NCBI RefSeq assembly: GCF_036327775.1
Contig: NZ_CP109598.1
Coordinates: 1,240,001 to 1,304,000 of the forward strand
Direction of reading: 5' to 3'
From: Streptomyces sp. NBC_01498
GTDB taxonomy: Bacteria; Actinomycetota; Actinomycetes; Streptomycetales; Streptomycetaceae
Length of the DNA: 64,000 bases
Shown: positions 57,346-63,966 of the stretch, one piece after another
How the letters are laid out: each line of letters opens with the position of its first letter
Position numbering within the stretch: position 1 is the stretch's first letter
Notes under the pieces: model-generated
The model's input: the letters and a program-made list of their open reading frames with translations, nothing else
The model's database searches: none
What the model was told of the DNA's origin: nothing
Made by a program: the position numbers and the translations under genes

Positions 57346-57459
57346 ACACTCGCGGGCGTACATTCGTATCTCCCCATACTGCTAAGTAGGTTGAACGGCC
57401 GCTCTGTGCGCGGTTGATTCTGCGGTGGTAAGCGGTTGCTCATCGGCTCGGGAGACACT

Positions 57460-58251
57460 TTGTTGCGACGTATCAACGGCACGGCACTCATCATCGCGGC
57501 ACTCGTCGCGACGGTAGGGGCCCTGGCCTTTCCTGTCTGGTCGTACGCCGACCGATCCGGCACGGGGGAGGCGAATCTCGCGGCGTCGAGCGTGTCCACC
57601 CAGTGGGGACCGCTCTCGGCGACGGACCGCGACTTCCTCGTGAAGGTGCGACTGGCGGGGTTGTGGGAACTGCCCGCCGGACAGCAGGCGATCGAGCGGG
57701 CCCCGAGCCAGGCCATCAAGGACGCGGGCGACCACCTGGTCGTCGGGCACACCGACCTGGACGTCCGCGCGCGCGACGTGGCCGCGAAGCTCGGCGTCGC
57801 CCTGCCGAACCAGCCCAACGAGCTCCAGCAGGGCTGGCTGCGGGAGTTGTCGGCGGCGACGGGAGCCGAGTACGACCGTAAGTTCGCCAACCTGCTGCGC
57901 AACGCGCACGGCAAGGTGTTCGCGCTGATCGCCGAGGTCAGACACACGACCCGCAACACCCTGATACGGCAGCTCGCGACCGACGCCAACCAGACGGTGC
58001 TCGACCACATCACGATGCTGGAGGGCACCGGGCTCGTCGACTTCGACGCGATCGCGCGGGAGGCCGCGGGCACCAAGACCGCCAGCCCGACCGGCCCGCC
58101 GCCGCCGGACGGGAACCTGCCCCCGTCGCCGCCGGCCGCTTCGCCGACCGGGGACAGCTCGTTCACCTCCCGGCCGTCCACGCAGCCGGGCCCGCCGACC
58201 GCCATCAACACCAACCGCCCGCCGGTCACGGGCGACGAACCGACGCCGTAA
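57460..58251 (+). CDS. Exported DUF4142 protein
   Basis: TTG at 57460 follows GGGAGA; an upstream TTG at 57436 is possible. The N-terminal hydrophobic segment (TALIIAALVATVGALAFPVW) is a signal or anchor. The DUF4142 helical domain spans TDRDFLVKVRLAGLWELPAG to LDHITMLEGTGLVDFDAI. The C-terminal Pro/Ser/Thr-rich tail fits a cell-wall-associated protein. Function unknown. Confidence 0.82.
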   Translation: MLRRINGTALIIAALVATVGALAFPVWSYADRSGTGEANLAASSVSTQWGPLSATDRDFLVKVRLAGLWELPAGQQAIERAPSQAIKDAGDHLVVGHTDLDVRARDVAAKLGVALPNQPNELQQGWLRELSAATGAEYDRKFANLLRNAHGKVFALIAEVRHTTRNTLIRQLATDANQTVLDHITMLEGTGLVDFDAIAREAAGTKTASPTGPPPPDGNLPPSPPAASPTGDSSFTSRPSTQPGPPTAINTNRPPVTGDEPTP

Positions 58252-58414
58252 GCCGGCGTTCGGAGGCCGGGCCCGGGACCGCGTACCGGCGGTCCGACGG
58301 GCCCGGGAACCTCAAATGATGCTCTGAACGTCCCCTCCTCCGGGTTCACCGGCACCCGGCGGGGCCATTACCCCTGAACCGGCGGTCGCCGGGGCACGGA
58401 GGAGGGGGAGCATC

Positions 58415-59971
58415 ATGAGGAGCCAGAACGGCACGGCGGAGCGGCGCGGTACGGGGAGCACGCGGAGTACGGGCGCCGGTACGGGCCAGGCGGACCACGC
58501 GGGTCACGCGGGTCACGCGACGGATGCGAGTGACACAAGGGCCACGAGGGGTGCGGCCGACGCGGGGAAGCCCGGGAGTCACAGCACCCTCGGGATCGGG
58601 ATCGGCTGGCGACCCGAGATCGCGGACGCGGTCGAGTCGCTGCCGGGCATCGACTGGGTCGAGGCCGTCGCCGAGAACCTCTGCCCCGGCCACCTCCCCG
58701 ACTCGCTGCTGCGACTGCGCGCCCGAGGCGTCACCGTCGTCCCGCACGGCGTCTCGCTCGGACTGGGCGGCGCCGGTCGCCCCGACCCCAAGCGCCTCGC
58801 CGATCTGGCGGAGCGCGCCGAGGCCCTGGACTCCCCGCTGGTCACCGAGCACATCGCCTTCGTACGGGCCGGTGGCGCGCTCACCGCTTCCGTCTCGCTC
58901 GAAGCCGGTCATCTGCTGCCGGTCCCCCGCACCCGGGACGCGCTGCGGGTGCTGTGCGAGAACGTACGGATCGCCCAGGAGTCGCTGCCGGTGCCGCTCG
59001 CGGTGGAGAACATCGCCGCGCTGATCAACTGGCCGGACAAGGAGTTGACGGAGGGTCAGTTCCTGGCGGAGCTGGTCGAGCGCACGGGCGTACGGCTGTT
59101 GATCGACGTCGCGAACCTGCACACCAACCATGTCAACCGGGGCGAGGATCCGGCGACCGCGCTCGACCGGCTGCCGGTCGAGGCCATCGCATACGTGCAT
59201 GTGGCGGGCGGTGTCGAACGGGACGGGGTGTGGCACGACACCCACGCCCACCCGGTGAGCGCGCCGGTGCTGGACGTGCTGGCGGAGTTGCGCGCGCGGG
59301 TCTCGCCGCCGGGGGTACTGCTGGAGCGGGACGACAACTTCCCGCCGACGGCGGAGTTGGCCGCCGAACTGGACATGATCCGGGCGACGTTGCGGGAGCC
59401 GGGGTGGGGGTCGTCGCAGGGGGCGTCGCGAGGGACGGGGCCGGAGTCTCGTACAACTGCCGCCCGGGAAGGCGCGGTTGCGGCACCGACAGCGGCCACC
59501 CCCGCGCCCGAGTCCGAGCCTGCGCCTGCGCCTGCGCCTGAGTGCGTGACCGAGGGCACCGACCGTGCCCGTGAGCGGCTCGCCCTCGCGCAGACCGCGC
59601 TCCTCTCCGCCCTGGTCGCCGGGACTCCCGCGCCCGAGGGCTTCGACTCGCGGCGGCTCGGGGTGCAGAGCCGGGCGCTCGCCGCCAAGCGGGCGGAGGT
59701 CGTCGCCAAGGTGGCGCCGGAGCTGCCGCGCATCCTCGGGGACGGGTACCGGGCCGCGTACCTGGCGTACGCCAAGTCCCGCCCCATGCACGCCGGTTAC
59801 CGGCGTGACGCACTCGACTTCGCCGAGCATCTGCTGATCGCCGACCGGCCCGAGGACCCGGAGGCGCGGCGTGAACTGACGCAGTGGTGGCGCGACCGGT
59901 CGGGACCGCGCCCGCCCCGCCGTGCGGCCCGGATCGCACGTGCTGCCCGTACCGTGCTCGTGGGGCGGTGA
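58415..59971 (+). CDS. DUF692/MNIO-type multinuclear iron oxidase fused to a partner domain
   Basis: At 518 aa, after a ~55-residue low-complexity head, residues ~57-330 are a DUF692 TIM-barrel with metal-ligand motifs: His111 (VPHGVSL), Glu145-His146 (TEHIAF), Glu198-Asn199 (VENIAAL), Asp231/His236 ([12 protein letters not shown]), His262 (YVHVAGG), Asp275/His277 (WHDTHAHPV) and Glu304 (LLERDDNFP). These enzymes modify Cys in ribosomal peptides. Residues ~385-495 look like the usual separate partner protein ([40 protein letters not shown]), here fused. SD GGAGGAGGGGGAG precedes ATG 58415. Confidence 0.9.
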
Positions 59972-59976
59972 CCGGC

Positions 59977-60945
59977 ATGAACACACTGGTCACCGCGCTC
60001 CAGATCGCCATCCCGCTCTCCTTCGTCTCGCTCGTCGTCGGCGTGATCTCCCTGCGCTCGGGCGGCGGCGGGAACGAGATCCACGACCCGATGGAGATGG
60101 CCTTCCTCGGCGGCGGGCCGGGCCGGGTCGCCGAGACCGCGATCGTCGCCATGCACACGGACGGACGGCTGCGCGTCGGCGGCCCCGGCATCGTCGCCCT
60201 CCACAGCGACATCGCACGGAATCCTGTCGAACACGCGGTCGTACAGGAGTACCGGCGGGCGCCCAACGGCGCCCTGCACGCGCTGCGCCTCGCCGTGATG
60301 CGCAGCCCCGCCGTCCAGGAGATCGGCCACTCCCTCGCCGCCCGCGGACTGCTGGTCCCGGTACGGAAGACCCGGCTGTGGGTGCTCTGGGGCGTGACGC
60401 AGGCGGTCGTCTGCGTGCTGGCCATTCCGCTGTCGATCGTCCTGCTCGTCAGCACCACGGACCCGGCGGTCATCCCGACGCTGCCGCTGGCGTTCATCGG
60501 TGTCTTCGCGGGCGTCATCTGCGCGGTGGTGGCCCGGCAACGGCTCACGGCCGCAGGAGTGAAGGCCCGGCTGAAGTTCCGTACGGCCTACCAGCACATC
60601 AGGACCCCCGCCCACCAGGTCGCCGTGAACGGGCACATGGCGCTGGACGACCCACAGCTGCGCGACCACCTGACGGCGGCGCGCGCCATGCGGGCCGGCC
60701 GTGACTTCCAGCCGGCGCCGCATCTGGCCGCCGGCGCCGTGGTGGTGTGGTGCGCGAGCGCGGGCTTCGGCGACGGCAGTGGCTCGGGCGACGGGGGCGG
60801 TGGCTGCGGCGGCTCCGGAGGATCGGGCTGCGGCGGGGGTGGCGGAGGCTGCGGCGGTGGGGGCGGGTCCGGTGACGGCGGAGGCGGTGGAGGGGGCGGT
60901 GGCTGCGGCGGGGGTGGCGGAGGCTGCGGAGGAGGCGGTGGCTGA
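59977..60945 (+). CDS. TIGR04222-type membrane protein with Gly/Cys-rich C-terminal tail
   Basis: At 322 aa, transmembrane helices lie at about 8-27, 134-158 and 164-187. A soluble part (PVEHAVVQEYRRAPNGALHA; FRTAYQHIRTPAHQVAVNGH) fits the TIGR04222 family known for low-complexity C-termini. The last ~55 residues are almost only Gly and Ser with Cys at about 277, 285, 292, 310 and 317, plus Cys259 (VVVWCASAGF). ATG at 59977 follows a GGTGA-type site; GTG at 59968 overlapping the MNIO stop is an alternative. It is the likely substrate or partner of the upstream MNIO. Confidence 0.85.
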   Translation: MNTLVTALQIAIPLSFVSLVVGVISLRSGGGGNEIHDPMEMAFLGGGPGRVAETAIVAMHTDGRLRVGGPGIVALHSDIARNPVEHAVVQEYRRAPNGALHALRLAVMRSPAVQEIGHSLAARGLLVPVRKTRLWVLWGVTQAVVCVLAIPLSIVLLVSTTDPAVIPTLPLAFIGVFAGVICAVVARQRLTAAGVKARLKFRTAYQHIRTPAHQVAVNGHMALDDPQLRDHLTAARAMRAGRDFQPAPHLAAGAVVVWCASAGFGDGSGSGDGGGGCGGSGGSGCGGGGGGCGGGGGSGDGGGGGGGGGCGGGGGGCGGGGG

Positions 60946-61170: not shown

Positions 61171-61210
61171 ATCGCTTTCCCCCACGCGCCACGCCCGAAG
61201 GGAAAGCGAT
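61171..61210 (+). promoter_or_regulatory. Hairpin covering the ribosome binding site and start of the hydrolase gene
   Basis: ATCGCTTTCCC (61171-61181) pairs perfectly with GGGAAAGCGAT (61200-61210), an 18-nt loop between. The right arm contains the purine-rich site and runs into the ATG at 61209. Folding would hide the start of translation. Confidence 0.55.
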
Positions 61211-62879
61211 GAGAGCAGTTGCGAAGTACGGGGCCCTGGCCACCCTCGGCTCCTTGGTCCTGTCCACCCTCTCCGCCGCCCCGGCGGGGGGCGCGGACTT
61301 CGCCGGAGCCTCGTCCGAGGCGCGCGGCACGGTGATCGCCGCCCAGCGCGCCGCTGCCAGGGGCATCGCCTTCCGCGCCTGCCCCAAGGCGGAGATGCTG
61401 CCCGATCCCCTCACCTGCGGCACAGTCGAGGTCCCGCTCGACTACGCCCGGCCGGACGGTGAGCTGATCACCCTCACCGTCAGCCGGGTCAAGGCGTCCG
61501 GCCGGACGGGCGCGGCGGGCGGCGAGGGCAAAGCAGTGGAAACCGTCCGGCGCCAGGGGGCGCTCGTCTACAACCCGGGCGGCCCCGGCGCCTCCAGCAT
61601 GGCGTTCCCGCTGGCGGCCGAGCTGCCCGAGTGGAAGCGGATCGCGACGGCGTACGACCTGGTCGGCTACGCCCCGCGCGGCGTCGGCCGCTCCGCGCCG
61701 CTGTCCTGTCAGTCCCCCGCCGACTTCACGAAGGCGCCCACGCTCGCGCCGACGCACCCCTCGGAGTCGTACAAGCAGGAGCGTGTCGCCGGTGCCAAGG
61801 CGTACGCGCAGGGCTGCGCCCGCACCACGGGACCGGCCCTGCGCCACTACACGTCGCTGAACAACGCCCGCGACCTCGACGTCCTGCGGGCCGCGCTCGG
61901 CGAGAAGAAGCTGTCCTTCATGGGCGCCTCCTACGGAACGTACTTCGGCTCGCTGTACGCCACGCTCTTCCCGTCCCATGTCCGCCGCATGGTCTTCGAC
62001 TCGGCCGTCAACCCGGCTCAGGAGCAGATCTGGTACCGCAACAACCTCGACCAGTCCCTCGCGTTCGAGCAGCGCTGGGCGGACTTCCGGACCTGGGTGG
62101 CCAAGCACGACACGACGTACCGCCTCGGCAGCACACCCGACGCGGTGCAGCGGAACTACGAGCGGGTGAAGGCGGCGGTGACCGGCCGCCCGGCGGGCGG
62201 CAAGGTCGGCCCCGGCCAGCTGCACGCGGCGATGCTCGGCGCGGGCTACTACGACGACTACTGGGCGATGCGGGCGACGGCCCTCTCGGAGTTCCTGAAG
62301 GGCAACACCAAGCCACTGATCGACCAGGCGACCCCGCGCCCGGCGGCAGCCGCGGACAGCGAGAACGGCAACGCCGTCTACACGGCCGTGGAGTGCAACG
62401 ACGCGCCGTGGCCGACGGACTGGAAGACCTGGGACCGGGACAACACCGAACTCGCCACGCGCGCCCCGTTCGAGACCTGGGACAACGCGTGGATGAACCT
62501 CCCCTGCGCCTTCTGGCCGGCCCCCCGCCAGCGCCCGCTGAACGTCGGCACGGCCCCCGGCCGGCTCCCCCCGACCCTGATCCTCTCCGCCGAACGCGAC
62601 GCCGCGACCCCGTACCCCGGCGCCCTCGAACTCCAGCGCCGCCTCCCCGGCTCGGTCCTGATCACCGAACGAGCCGCCGGCGCCCACGGCCTCGCGGGCG
62701 GCCCGAACCAGTGCGTCAACGACCACCTGGAGGCCTACCTCCTCACCGGCAAAACCCCACCCCACCACGCCGACTGCGCCCCACACCCGGAGCCGAACCC
62801 GGTATCGCTGCCCCCGGACACCGATCAAGAAAAGCGCACGGACCTACGCCGCAGGTTGATCCCGAACGGCCACATCTGA
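61209..62879 (+). CDS. Secreted alpha/beta-hydrolase, tripeptidyl-aminopeptidase-like
   Basis: The N-terminal signal (YGALATLGSLVLSTLSAAPA) is followed by a Tap/SlpD-like domain: VYNPGGPGASSMAFPLAAEL (oxyanion), VGYAPRGVGRSAPLSCQSPA and the nucleophile Ser in FMGASYGTYFGS. The C-terminal TAP-like part has LPPTLILSAERDAATPYPGA (Asp) and AAGAHGLAGGPNQCVNDHLE (His). It releases N-terminal tripeptides in Streptomyces relatives. Length 556 aa is typical. The stop-to-hemQ gap holds a 20-bp terminator. Confidence 0.9.
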   Translation: MRAVAKYGALATLGSLVLSTLSAAPAGGADFAGASSEARGTVIAAQRAAARGIAFRACPKAEMLPDPLTCGTVEVPLDYARPDGELITLTVSRVKASGRTGAAGGEGKAVETVRRQGALVYNPGGPGASSMAFPLAAELPEWKRIATAYDLVGYAPRGVGRSAPLSCQSPADFTKAPTLAPTHPSESYKQERVAGAKAYAQGCARTTGPALRHYTSLNNARDLDVLRAALGEKKLSFMGASYGTYFGSLYATLFPSHVRRMVFDSAVNPAQEQIWYRNNLDQSLAFEQRWADFRTWVAKHDTTYRLGSTPDAVQRNYERVKAAVTGRPAGGKVGPGQLHAAMLGAGYYDDYWAMRATALSEFLKGNTKPLIDQATPRPAAAADSENGNAVYTAVECNDAPWPTDWKTWDRDNTELATRAPFETWDNAWMNLPCAFWPAPRQRPLNVGTAPGRLPPTLILSAERDAATPYPGALELQRRLPGSVLITERAAGAHGLAGGPNQCVNDHLEAYLLTGKTPPHHADCAPHPEPNPVSLPPDTDQEKRTDLRRRLIPNGHI

Positions 62880-63249: not shown

Positions 63250-63966
63250 TCAGGCGAGTCCGGCGACGAGGTCCGCGACCGACTTGCGGCGGCCGGTGTA
63301 GAAGGGCACCTCTTCCCGTACGTACAGGCGGGCCTGCGAGCCGCGCAGGTGGCGCATCAGGTCGACGATCCGGTCCAGTTCGTCGGCCTCGAAGGCGAGG
63401 ATCCACTCGTAGTCGCCCAGCGTGAAGGACGAGACGGTGTTGGCGCGGACGTCCGGGTAGCCGCGGGCCATCTTGCCGTGGTCGGCGAGCATCGTGCGCC
63501 GTTCCTCGTCGGGCAGCAGATACCAGTCGTACGAGCGCACGAACGGGTAGACGCTGACGTAGTCGCGCGCCTTCTCGTCGGCCAGGAAGGCCGGGACATG
63601 CGACTTGTTGAACTCGGCGGGGCGGTGCAGCGCCATGTTCGACCAGACGGGGTCGAGGGTCCGGCCGAGCTTCGTGCGGCGGAAGAGGTTGTACGCCCCC
63701 TGGAGTTCGTCCGCCGTCGAGGCGTGCCACCAGATCATCAGATCGGCGTCGGCGCGCAGCCCGGACACGTCGTACGTGCCGCGCACGGTGATGTCCTTGG
63801 CGGCGAGCTGGTCGAAGAGGTCCTGGACCTCTTCGGCGTAACCGGCCCGGTCCTCCGGCAGCAGATCGCGCAGCTTGAAGACGGACCACAGCGTGTACCG
63901 GATGACGTCGTTGAGGTCCTTGGCCTTCTTGCCCGCGTTGGGCGTCTTCTCTGGTGCGGAAGTCAT
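63250..63966 (-). CDS. hemQ: HemQ, coproheme decarboxylase (chlorite dismutase family)
   Basis: The 238-aa protein has the HemQ landmarks: [40 protein letters not shown], the axial-ligand segment [20 protein letters not shown] and [20 protein letters not shown]. It oxidatively decarboxylates coproheme to heme b in the actinobacterial (coproporphyrin) pathway. ATG at 63966. Confidence 0.93.

Follow-up and report, generated by a model that had tools for sequence, protein, structure and literature searches.

A partner-fused MNIO enzyme and a TIGR04222 protein with a Gly/Ser/Cys tail: a candidate enzyme-substrate pair in Streptomyces

Proteins of the TIGR04222 family, found mostly in Actinomycetota and ending in Gly/Ser tails with Cys, were put forward by Antoine et al. 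in 2025 as putative substrates of MNIO (DUF692) enzymes (PMC12452194). In the same work, an arrangement named 'adjamnio-II (Pth) - MNIO - TIGR04222' was presented, the tail was predicted to be periplasmic, and many TIGR04222-MNIO clusters seemed to be partnerless, which left open whether and how their TIGR04222 proteins get modified. Here we analyse a locus of this kind in the single-contig 7.27 Mb genome of Streptomyces sp. NBC_01498, within a window of 64,000 nucleotides (positions 1240001-1304000), where a MNIO enzyme carrying a partner-like domain is followed by a TIGR04222 membrane protein with a Gly/Ser/Cys tail. Among the articles searched, one mentions DUF692 together with TIGR04222, and TIGR04222 also appears in one other, PMC5183585. 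The pairing itself is not new, since it is already contained in PMC12452194; what is added here is a partner that is fused or nearby, a rule for the spacing of the Cys residues, the exchange of the carrier protein and evidence for the cytoplasmic side. The locus and the published clusters have in common the same two genes, the tail, a PME-type 2 partner and a Pth-like neighbour, whereas they differ in the partner, fused or nearby here, and in the tail, favoured here as cytoplasmic and there as periplasmic. Altogether, judged from sequence, the conserved candidate pair of enzyme and substrate is real and of a published kind, in a fused-partner variant whose tail is probably cytoplasmic and independent of its carrier.

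Other described systems offer further points of comparison. Bufferins and captophorins (BufABC, FonABC and the oxazolin HvfABC) also combine a MNIO enzyme, a partner and repeated Cys-Gly sites, which are EGKCG repeats in fontiphorin and oxazolin (PMC12668002) and [GS]CG in the family studied here. Bufferins and oxazolins bear Sec signal peptides, whereas the carrier in our locus is anchored by transmembrane (TM) segments; moreover, bufferin and captophorin partners are of PME-type 1 (DUF2063), in contrast to the PME-type 2 found here, and the enzyme reaches neither the BufB equivalog cut-off of NCBIfam (181.7 bits against 310) nor that of HvfB (145.3 bits against 360). On the other hand, the TglHI system of 3-thiaglutamate shares the same nine iron ligands and provides the closest solved structure by Foldseek, but its substrate TglA-Cys is a short peptide with one C-terminal Cys and its partner TglI is a separate protein with a RiPP recognition element (RRE) domain, RiPPs being ribosomally synthesised and post-translationally modified peptides.

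An earlier reading of this DNA made without database searches (the sequence-only reading) had proposed a DUF692 domain with complete metal ligands, and this is borne out by a PF05114 score of 264.3 bits, against a gathering threshold of 25, and by the presence of all nine TglH-type ligands. Those of TglH are His71, His107, Glu151, Asp184, Asn187, His216, Asp229, His231 and Glu258 (PMC10880893), with H111, H146, E198, D231, N234, H262, D275, H277 and E304 as their counterparts in the window, a correspondence taken in part from alignments and in part from the order of motifs. The iron ligands at the locus are intact, and all 79 of the 79 MNIO loci surveyed have the same residue in each of the nine columns. 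The top Foldseek match of the MNIO model, which is of low confidence, is the TglHI holoenzyme chain 8hi7_B (E 7.9e-12); the AlphaFold2 (AF2) model of the fused protein has a mean predicted local distance difference test (pLDDT) of 57.7, with block means of 71-95 for residues 421-500. The class sample behind these surveys holds 296 genomes, with TIGR04222 in at least 81 and MNIO in 76; the DNA around every listed TIGR04222 match and around most MNIO matches was fetched (left out were the MNIO matches of G483, G450, G273, G053 and G094 and the second matches of G258, G355 and G391), and 18 weak MNIO rows below 60 bits, many of which match the partner profile, were excluded. A further named set comprises the best 80 of 490 loci retrieved with a Frankia-type MNIO profile.

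The fusion to a C-terminal partner-like domain, likewise proposed from the sequence, is confirmed for residues 385-518 or thereabouts, and 20 stand-alone copies of the partner show 28-74% identity to the domain of the window. A profile of the C-terminal 135 residues was run over the MNIO/TIGR04222 stretches of the class and phylum samples. Of 79 MNIO loci, 37 have the partner fused, 33 encode it in a separate open reading frame (ORF) on the stretch and 9 lack it. Among the 80 named loci, 8 show the fusion and 72 a separate partner, so that a fused or nearby partner accompanies MNIO in 70/79 and 80/80 loci. The domain is provisionally equated with PME-type 2 because lengths agree, the stand-alone ORF of Micromonospora matsumotoense having 158 aa from its Met and the PME-type 2 sequence published from this species 158 residues (PMC12452194). 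Its DUF2063 match in Pfam is sub-threshold (E 0.01), Pfam scans of the window MNIO protein giving no DUF2063 above cut-off, and its hhalign comparison with four DUF2063-type rows (P 0.0043) is weaker than that with an unrelated control (P 0.00063). Against PDB sequences the sole match of the partner profile was ALKBH1 (E 0.38), and the fold searches of the fused protein mainly covered the MNIO barrel. None of the 11 mentions of 'fused' or 'fusion' in the text of PMC12452194 concerns a MNIO-PME-type 2 fusion.

The association of the enzyme with the tail was counted under a strict rule, which asks that the last 30 residues contain no fewer than 3 Cys and 50% Gly+Ser, taking genomes as they come, uncorrected for relatedness; the window itself was scored 'no tail' at 3 Cys in this 30-residue test because just two of its Cys fall within the last 30 residues. 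Under the strict rule, MNIO lay within 2.5 kb of 39 tailed genes and was lacking at 8, against 23 and 35 for untailed genes (p 8e-6). Outside Streptomyces the corresponding numbers were 30 and 8 against 5 and 26 (p 1.8e-7), and within Streptomyces 9 and 0 against 18 and 9 (p 0.076), so the co-conservation that the sequence-only reading had offered as a check holds outside the genus and is less clear inside it. A 60-residue rule gave 36 and 3 against 26 and 40 (p 3.6e-8). Per genome, MNIO occurs in 42 of 44 tailed versus 19 of 37 untailed genomes; the tailed genomes without it are G383 (L178, with an irregular tail) and G300 (L167), where the ORF at the contig end matches MNIO weakly (34 bits). 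The TIGR04222 profile built here missed one protein (G049, locus L160), recovered by a later scan. In the named set, 67 of 80 loci have, by the strict rule, a tailed protein adjoining MNIO on its strand; five of the 13 misses start at a contig edge, the tails of L222, L246, L261 and L282 contain 2-3 Cys, and L225, L228, L277 and L294 are left as tailless. MNIO and the tailed protein are therefore associated as genes.

The same tail is also found beside MNIO on other proteins, either on single-TM carriers of 83-119 aa (L195, L199, L200, L202, L204, L205, L207 and L209), which include named Pseudofrankia and Frankia loci, or on carriers of about 450 aa with no TM-like stretch (L198 and L201); a Pfam scan of one carrier of each kind (L217, single-TM, and L201, soluble) gave no match. 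In the MNIO tree these exchanged carriers form three separate blocks of the printed leaf order, with 17 changes of carrier label versus at least 31 in 200 shuffles and 7 changes of partner label versus at least 28. The tree drops 8 loci of other clades, 5 at contig edges and 13 identical sequences; tails of its first set follow a 2-Cys rule, the labels of L286, L222, L246, L261 and L242 were assigned manually, and L160, L204, L282 and L148 count as 'no tail' although their tails are present. The tail is thus exchanged between carriers, which indicates the tail as the substrate rather than the membrane protein.

Some Streptomyces loci weigh against this assignment. The Cys-tailed protein is encoded in 10 of the 27 fetched Streptomyces MNIO loci and in none of the other 17 (16 of 26 when limited to readable loci, as L194 ends 158 bases past the MNIO ORF), all 17 keep the nine iron ligands, and 13 of them encode a Cys-less TIGR04222 protein; a further tailless case is L277, from the named set. 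The Cys-less paralogue (L106, L108, L109, L113, L116-L120, L123, L125, L129, L131 and others) has a CxxLC motif at the end of its first TM segment, with the Cys kept in 18/19 and 17/19 sequences, and this motif is a possible alternative target of MNIO. The enzyme could accordingly act on another protein such as this paralogue, the Cys tail being merely co-encoded; against this stand the tail-MNIO association across families, the unrelated tailed carriers in three blocks of the tree and the regular spacing of the Cys, and we regard it as very unlikely. Since 16 of the 17 tailless loci, L194 included, adjoin in the tree (L193 stands apart), one main loss of the tail is likely in Streptomyces. 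In these loci, either MNIO has another substrate or a Cys-tailed protein is encoded elsewhere in the genome, where the genome-wide look consisted of a TIGR04222 search with part of the candidates scored.

The five spaced Cys in a Gly/Ser tail, as described from the sequence, are present in the window, and a sixth Cys lies just ahead of the tail inside the Trp-Cys pair. Residues 261-322 have pLDDT below 50 in the AF2 model. Over 100 distinct tails of the family, the composition is 55.9% Gly, 24.2% Ser and 13.3% Cys, with minor D (2.3%), A (1.3%), V (0.2%) and R (0.1%). Of 298 pairs of consecutive Cys, 254 have a spacing of 4-8 and a single one a spacing of 1-2, whereas shuffling would yield 27% of the latter; the spacing is not random. 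The residue after a tail Cys is Gly in 344 of 396 cases, and the one ahead of it is Gly or Ser in 385 of 389, which defines the site as [GS]CG. Because EGKCG shares with this site Cys-Gly alone, the chemistry at [GS]CG is a guess by analogy. Slippage on GC-rich repeats could be imagined as the source of such a low-complexity tail, the Gly codon GGC being one step from the Cys codon TGC and Ser, likewise one step away, being common. However, the remaining one-step neighbours (A, V, R and D) are nearly absent while Cys makes up more than an eighth of the residues, the Cys are regularly spaced, and ORFs of the tail type are rare away from MNIO (5 in the 80 named loci, against 69 near MNIO on its strand). 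Contradicted by composition and spacing, a slippage origin is hardly credible and was rejected.

The carrier of the window is a confident member of its family (118 bits against the NCBIfam cut-off of 43), and its AF2 model has a mean pLDDT of 79 and a predicted template modelling score (pTM) of 0.73. The invariance of its Trp-Cys pair refers to 62 homologues, window included, chosen from 120 listed. Its soluble domain (59977-60696) appears to resemble GOLPH3/GPP34 in profile and in fold, but differs from it in a TM hairpin placed in an interruption, in the added Cys tail and in the absence of a Pfam GPP34 match, both up to E 1 for the whole window protein and up to E 10 for window residues 1-240 and the proteins of L126, L162, L170 and L188. 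Foldseek on the model gave nothing with E below 0.001, and GOLPH3 rows surfaced in a second look alone, below its top. No paper joining GOLPH3 and TIGR04222 was found in a search whose coverage mostly leaves out subscription journals. As a precomputed annotation, PF26136 is attached to homologues. A second TIGR04222 gene of the source genome encodes a protein with no predicted TM segment and a Gly tail without Cys.

With regard to the side of the membrane, the sequence-only reading envisaged a cell-surface product, which is not favoured by the charges at TM1, the tailed homologue L170, the single-TM and soluble carriers or the GOLPH3-like domain. K/R residues are asymmetric at TM1 in 83 of 97 Cys-tailed sequences, in a pattern that, judged from the charges, is not signal-peptide-like; the Cys-tailed homologue of L170, beside MNIO, is missing TM1-TM3, and neither it nor that of L167, also without these segments, has a strong fourth hydrophobic stretch; and an Arg-rich segment follows the TM in 9 of 9 single-TM carriers. 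Other observations pull the opposite way: many non-Streptomyces members have a weak fourth hydrophobic segment and a TM2-TM3 loop that is not depleted in K/R (statistics over the 144 hits that reach TM3), and in L188 the lone hydrophobic stretch directly adjoins the front of the tail and is itself preceded by an Arg-rich segment. These would suit a tail that ends outside the membrane as an extracytoplasmic metal-binding coat, modified before or during insertion, as would the published periplasmic prediction (PMC12452194) and the sequestration of copper by bufferins in the periplasm. Nevertheless, the segment matching the fourth stretch is more polar in Streptomyces (mean Kyte-Doolittle hydropathy 0.93), and together with the strong TM1 asymmetry, L170 and L167, and the soluble and Arg-flanked carriers this makes an outside tail unlikely. 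A cytoplasmic tail is supported, not proven.

A different fate would be that of a RiPP core, cut from its carrier after modification and released. MNIO substrates are described as RiPP precursors (PMC12452194), carriers that can be swapped would fit the part of a leader, the aligned homologues all have Trp-Cys ahead of the tail, and relatives of the weakly iminopeptidase-like hydrolase encoded downstream occur in 21 of the 27 Streptomyces MNIO loci that were fetched. This hydrolase, however, is almost confined to Streptomyces loci (elsewhere no systematic search for proteases or exporters was made) and is also present where the Cys tail is missing, and the carrier, being a large protein of the membrane, differs from the leaders usually seen, so that release of the tail appears quite unlikely.

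Table 1. Features of the MNIO-TIGR04222 locus and its surroundings, in window coordinates.
Feature	Position	Strand	Basis or remark
Pth2-like (peptidyl-tRNA hydrolase) gene, 317 aa	56392..57345	+	NCBIfam Pth2 below cut-off, E 3.4e-8
DUF4142 protein gene	57436..58251	+	PF13628, E 2e-19
AGGAGG, Shine-Dalgarno-like	58400..58405	+	sequence; 9 nt upstream of ATG 58415
MNIO (DUF692) enzyme with fused PME-type 2-like partner domain, 518 aa	58415..59971	+	ORF, Pfam, NCBIfam
MNIO TIM-barrel domain, residues 60-326	58592..59392	+	PF05114, E 1.3e-78; nine iron ligands
C-terminal partner domain, residues 385-518 (about)	59567..59968	+	homology with partner genes that stand alone
TIGR04222 membrane protein with Gly/Ser/Cys tail, 322 aa	59977..60945	+	NCBIfam TIGR04222
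TM1, residues 8-26	59998..60054	+	hydropathy and charge; predicted N-out/C-in
TM2, residues 140-158	60394..60450	+	hydropathy and charge; AF2 helix 129-160
TM3, residues 168-186	60478..60534	+	hydropathy and charge; AF2 helix 168-187
Trp258-Cys259, directly before tail	60748..60753	+	invariant in 62 aligned homologues
Gly/Ser tail, disordered, five Cys at intervals; putative substrate of MNIO	60754..60942	+	sequence, AF2
Alpha/beta hydrolase, downstream	61209-62879		weak, below-cut-off likeness to proline iminopeptidases
hemQ relative	63250-63966	-	

In the layout of the locus (Table 1), the membrane protein gene lies directly downstream of MNIO as first described, with its ATG 5 nt after the MNIO stop codon. 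Translation could also start from a GTG at 59968, which would overlap that stop. The genome search found one MNIO gene, and the named organisms among the closest homologues of the MNIO and TIGR04222 proteins are Streptomyces. Two genes upstream of MNIO, the Pth2-like gene, whose match is confined to the C-terminal third of the protein, has relatives in 24 of the 27 fetched Streptomyces loci (blastp) and resembles the neighbour of the published adjamnio-II arrangement (PMC12452194). Between it and MNIO lies the DUF4142 gene (relatives in 17 of 27 by blastp), whose product has a Pro-rich C-terminus; in L117, a similar gene stands between MNIO and a Cys-less TIGR04222 gene. A hemQ relative is found near MNIO in 24 of 27 Streptomyces loci and also in L229, L241 and L280 (Yinghuangia, Umezawaea and Gandjariella), which could reflect old synteny or a link to iron or heme. 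Two records of Singulisphaera, a genus of Planctomycetota (L261 and L273), have an identical TIGR04222-MNIO-partner layout. SCO6045 is presumably the MNIO homologue of S. coelicolor. This gene is listed as about 3-fold up in the wild type under oxidative stress (PMC4991794).

Taken together, the two adjacent genes may form a self-contained modification system, in which MNIO, carrying its recognition partner as a C-terminal domain, would oxidise the [GS]-Cys-Gly sites of the tail. If the tail is cytoplasmic, where the enzyme is, it would be modified in place and remain attached to the membrane on its inner side, while the remaining TIGR04222 protein, a GOLPH3-like domain split by a TM hairpin, would serve as an exchangeable anchor. 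By analogy, the modified Cys may be of the thiooxazole or thioamide type, and their probable role would be to bind a metal, for instance Cu(I), or to buffer thiol or redox stress. That a partner-fused MNIO modifies the Cys tail in place, in the cytoplasm and tethered to the membrane, is, in our view, moderately likely; more tentative is the wider proposal of a portable, never-exported Cys-Gly tail as a class of MNIO substrate of its own, which would be set on unrelated anchors (GOLPH3-like TM proteins, single-TM stubs or soluble proteins of about 450 residues) and modified in place at the cytoplasmic side, by MNIO with a fused or paired PME-type 2 partner, into a membrane-tethered, heterocycle-bearing metal or redox buffer. 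Because relatives place the tail on unrelated carriers, apparently inside the cell, it seems to be the functional element of a system that has had little study and possibly binds metal, and with the tail as substrate such a system would be testable with short soluble constructs. For the loci seen here, the fused or nearby partner removes the objection of a missing partner that the published clusters raise (PMC12452194). Moreover, with a tail on the cytoplasmic side, the enzyme would reach its substrate without an export step, and the product would be a fixed protein instead of a released or exported peptide.
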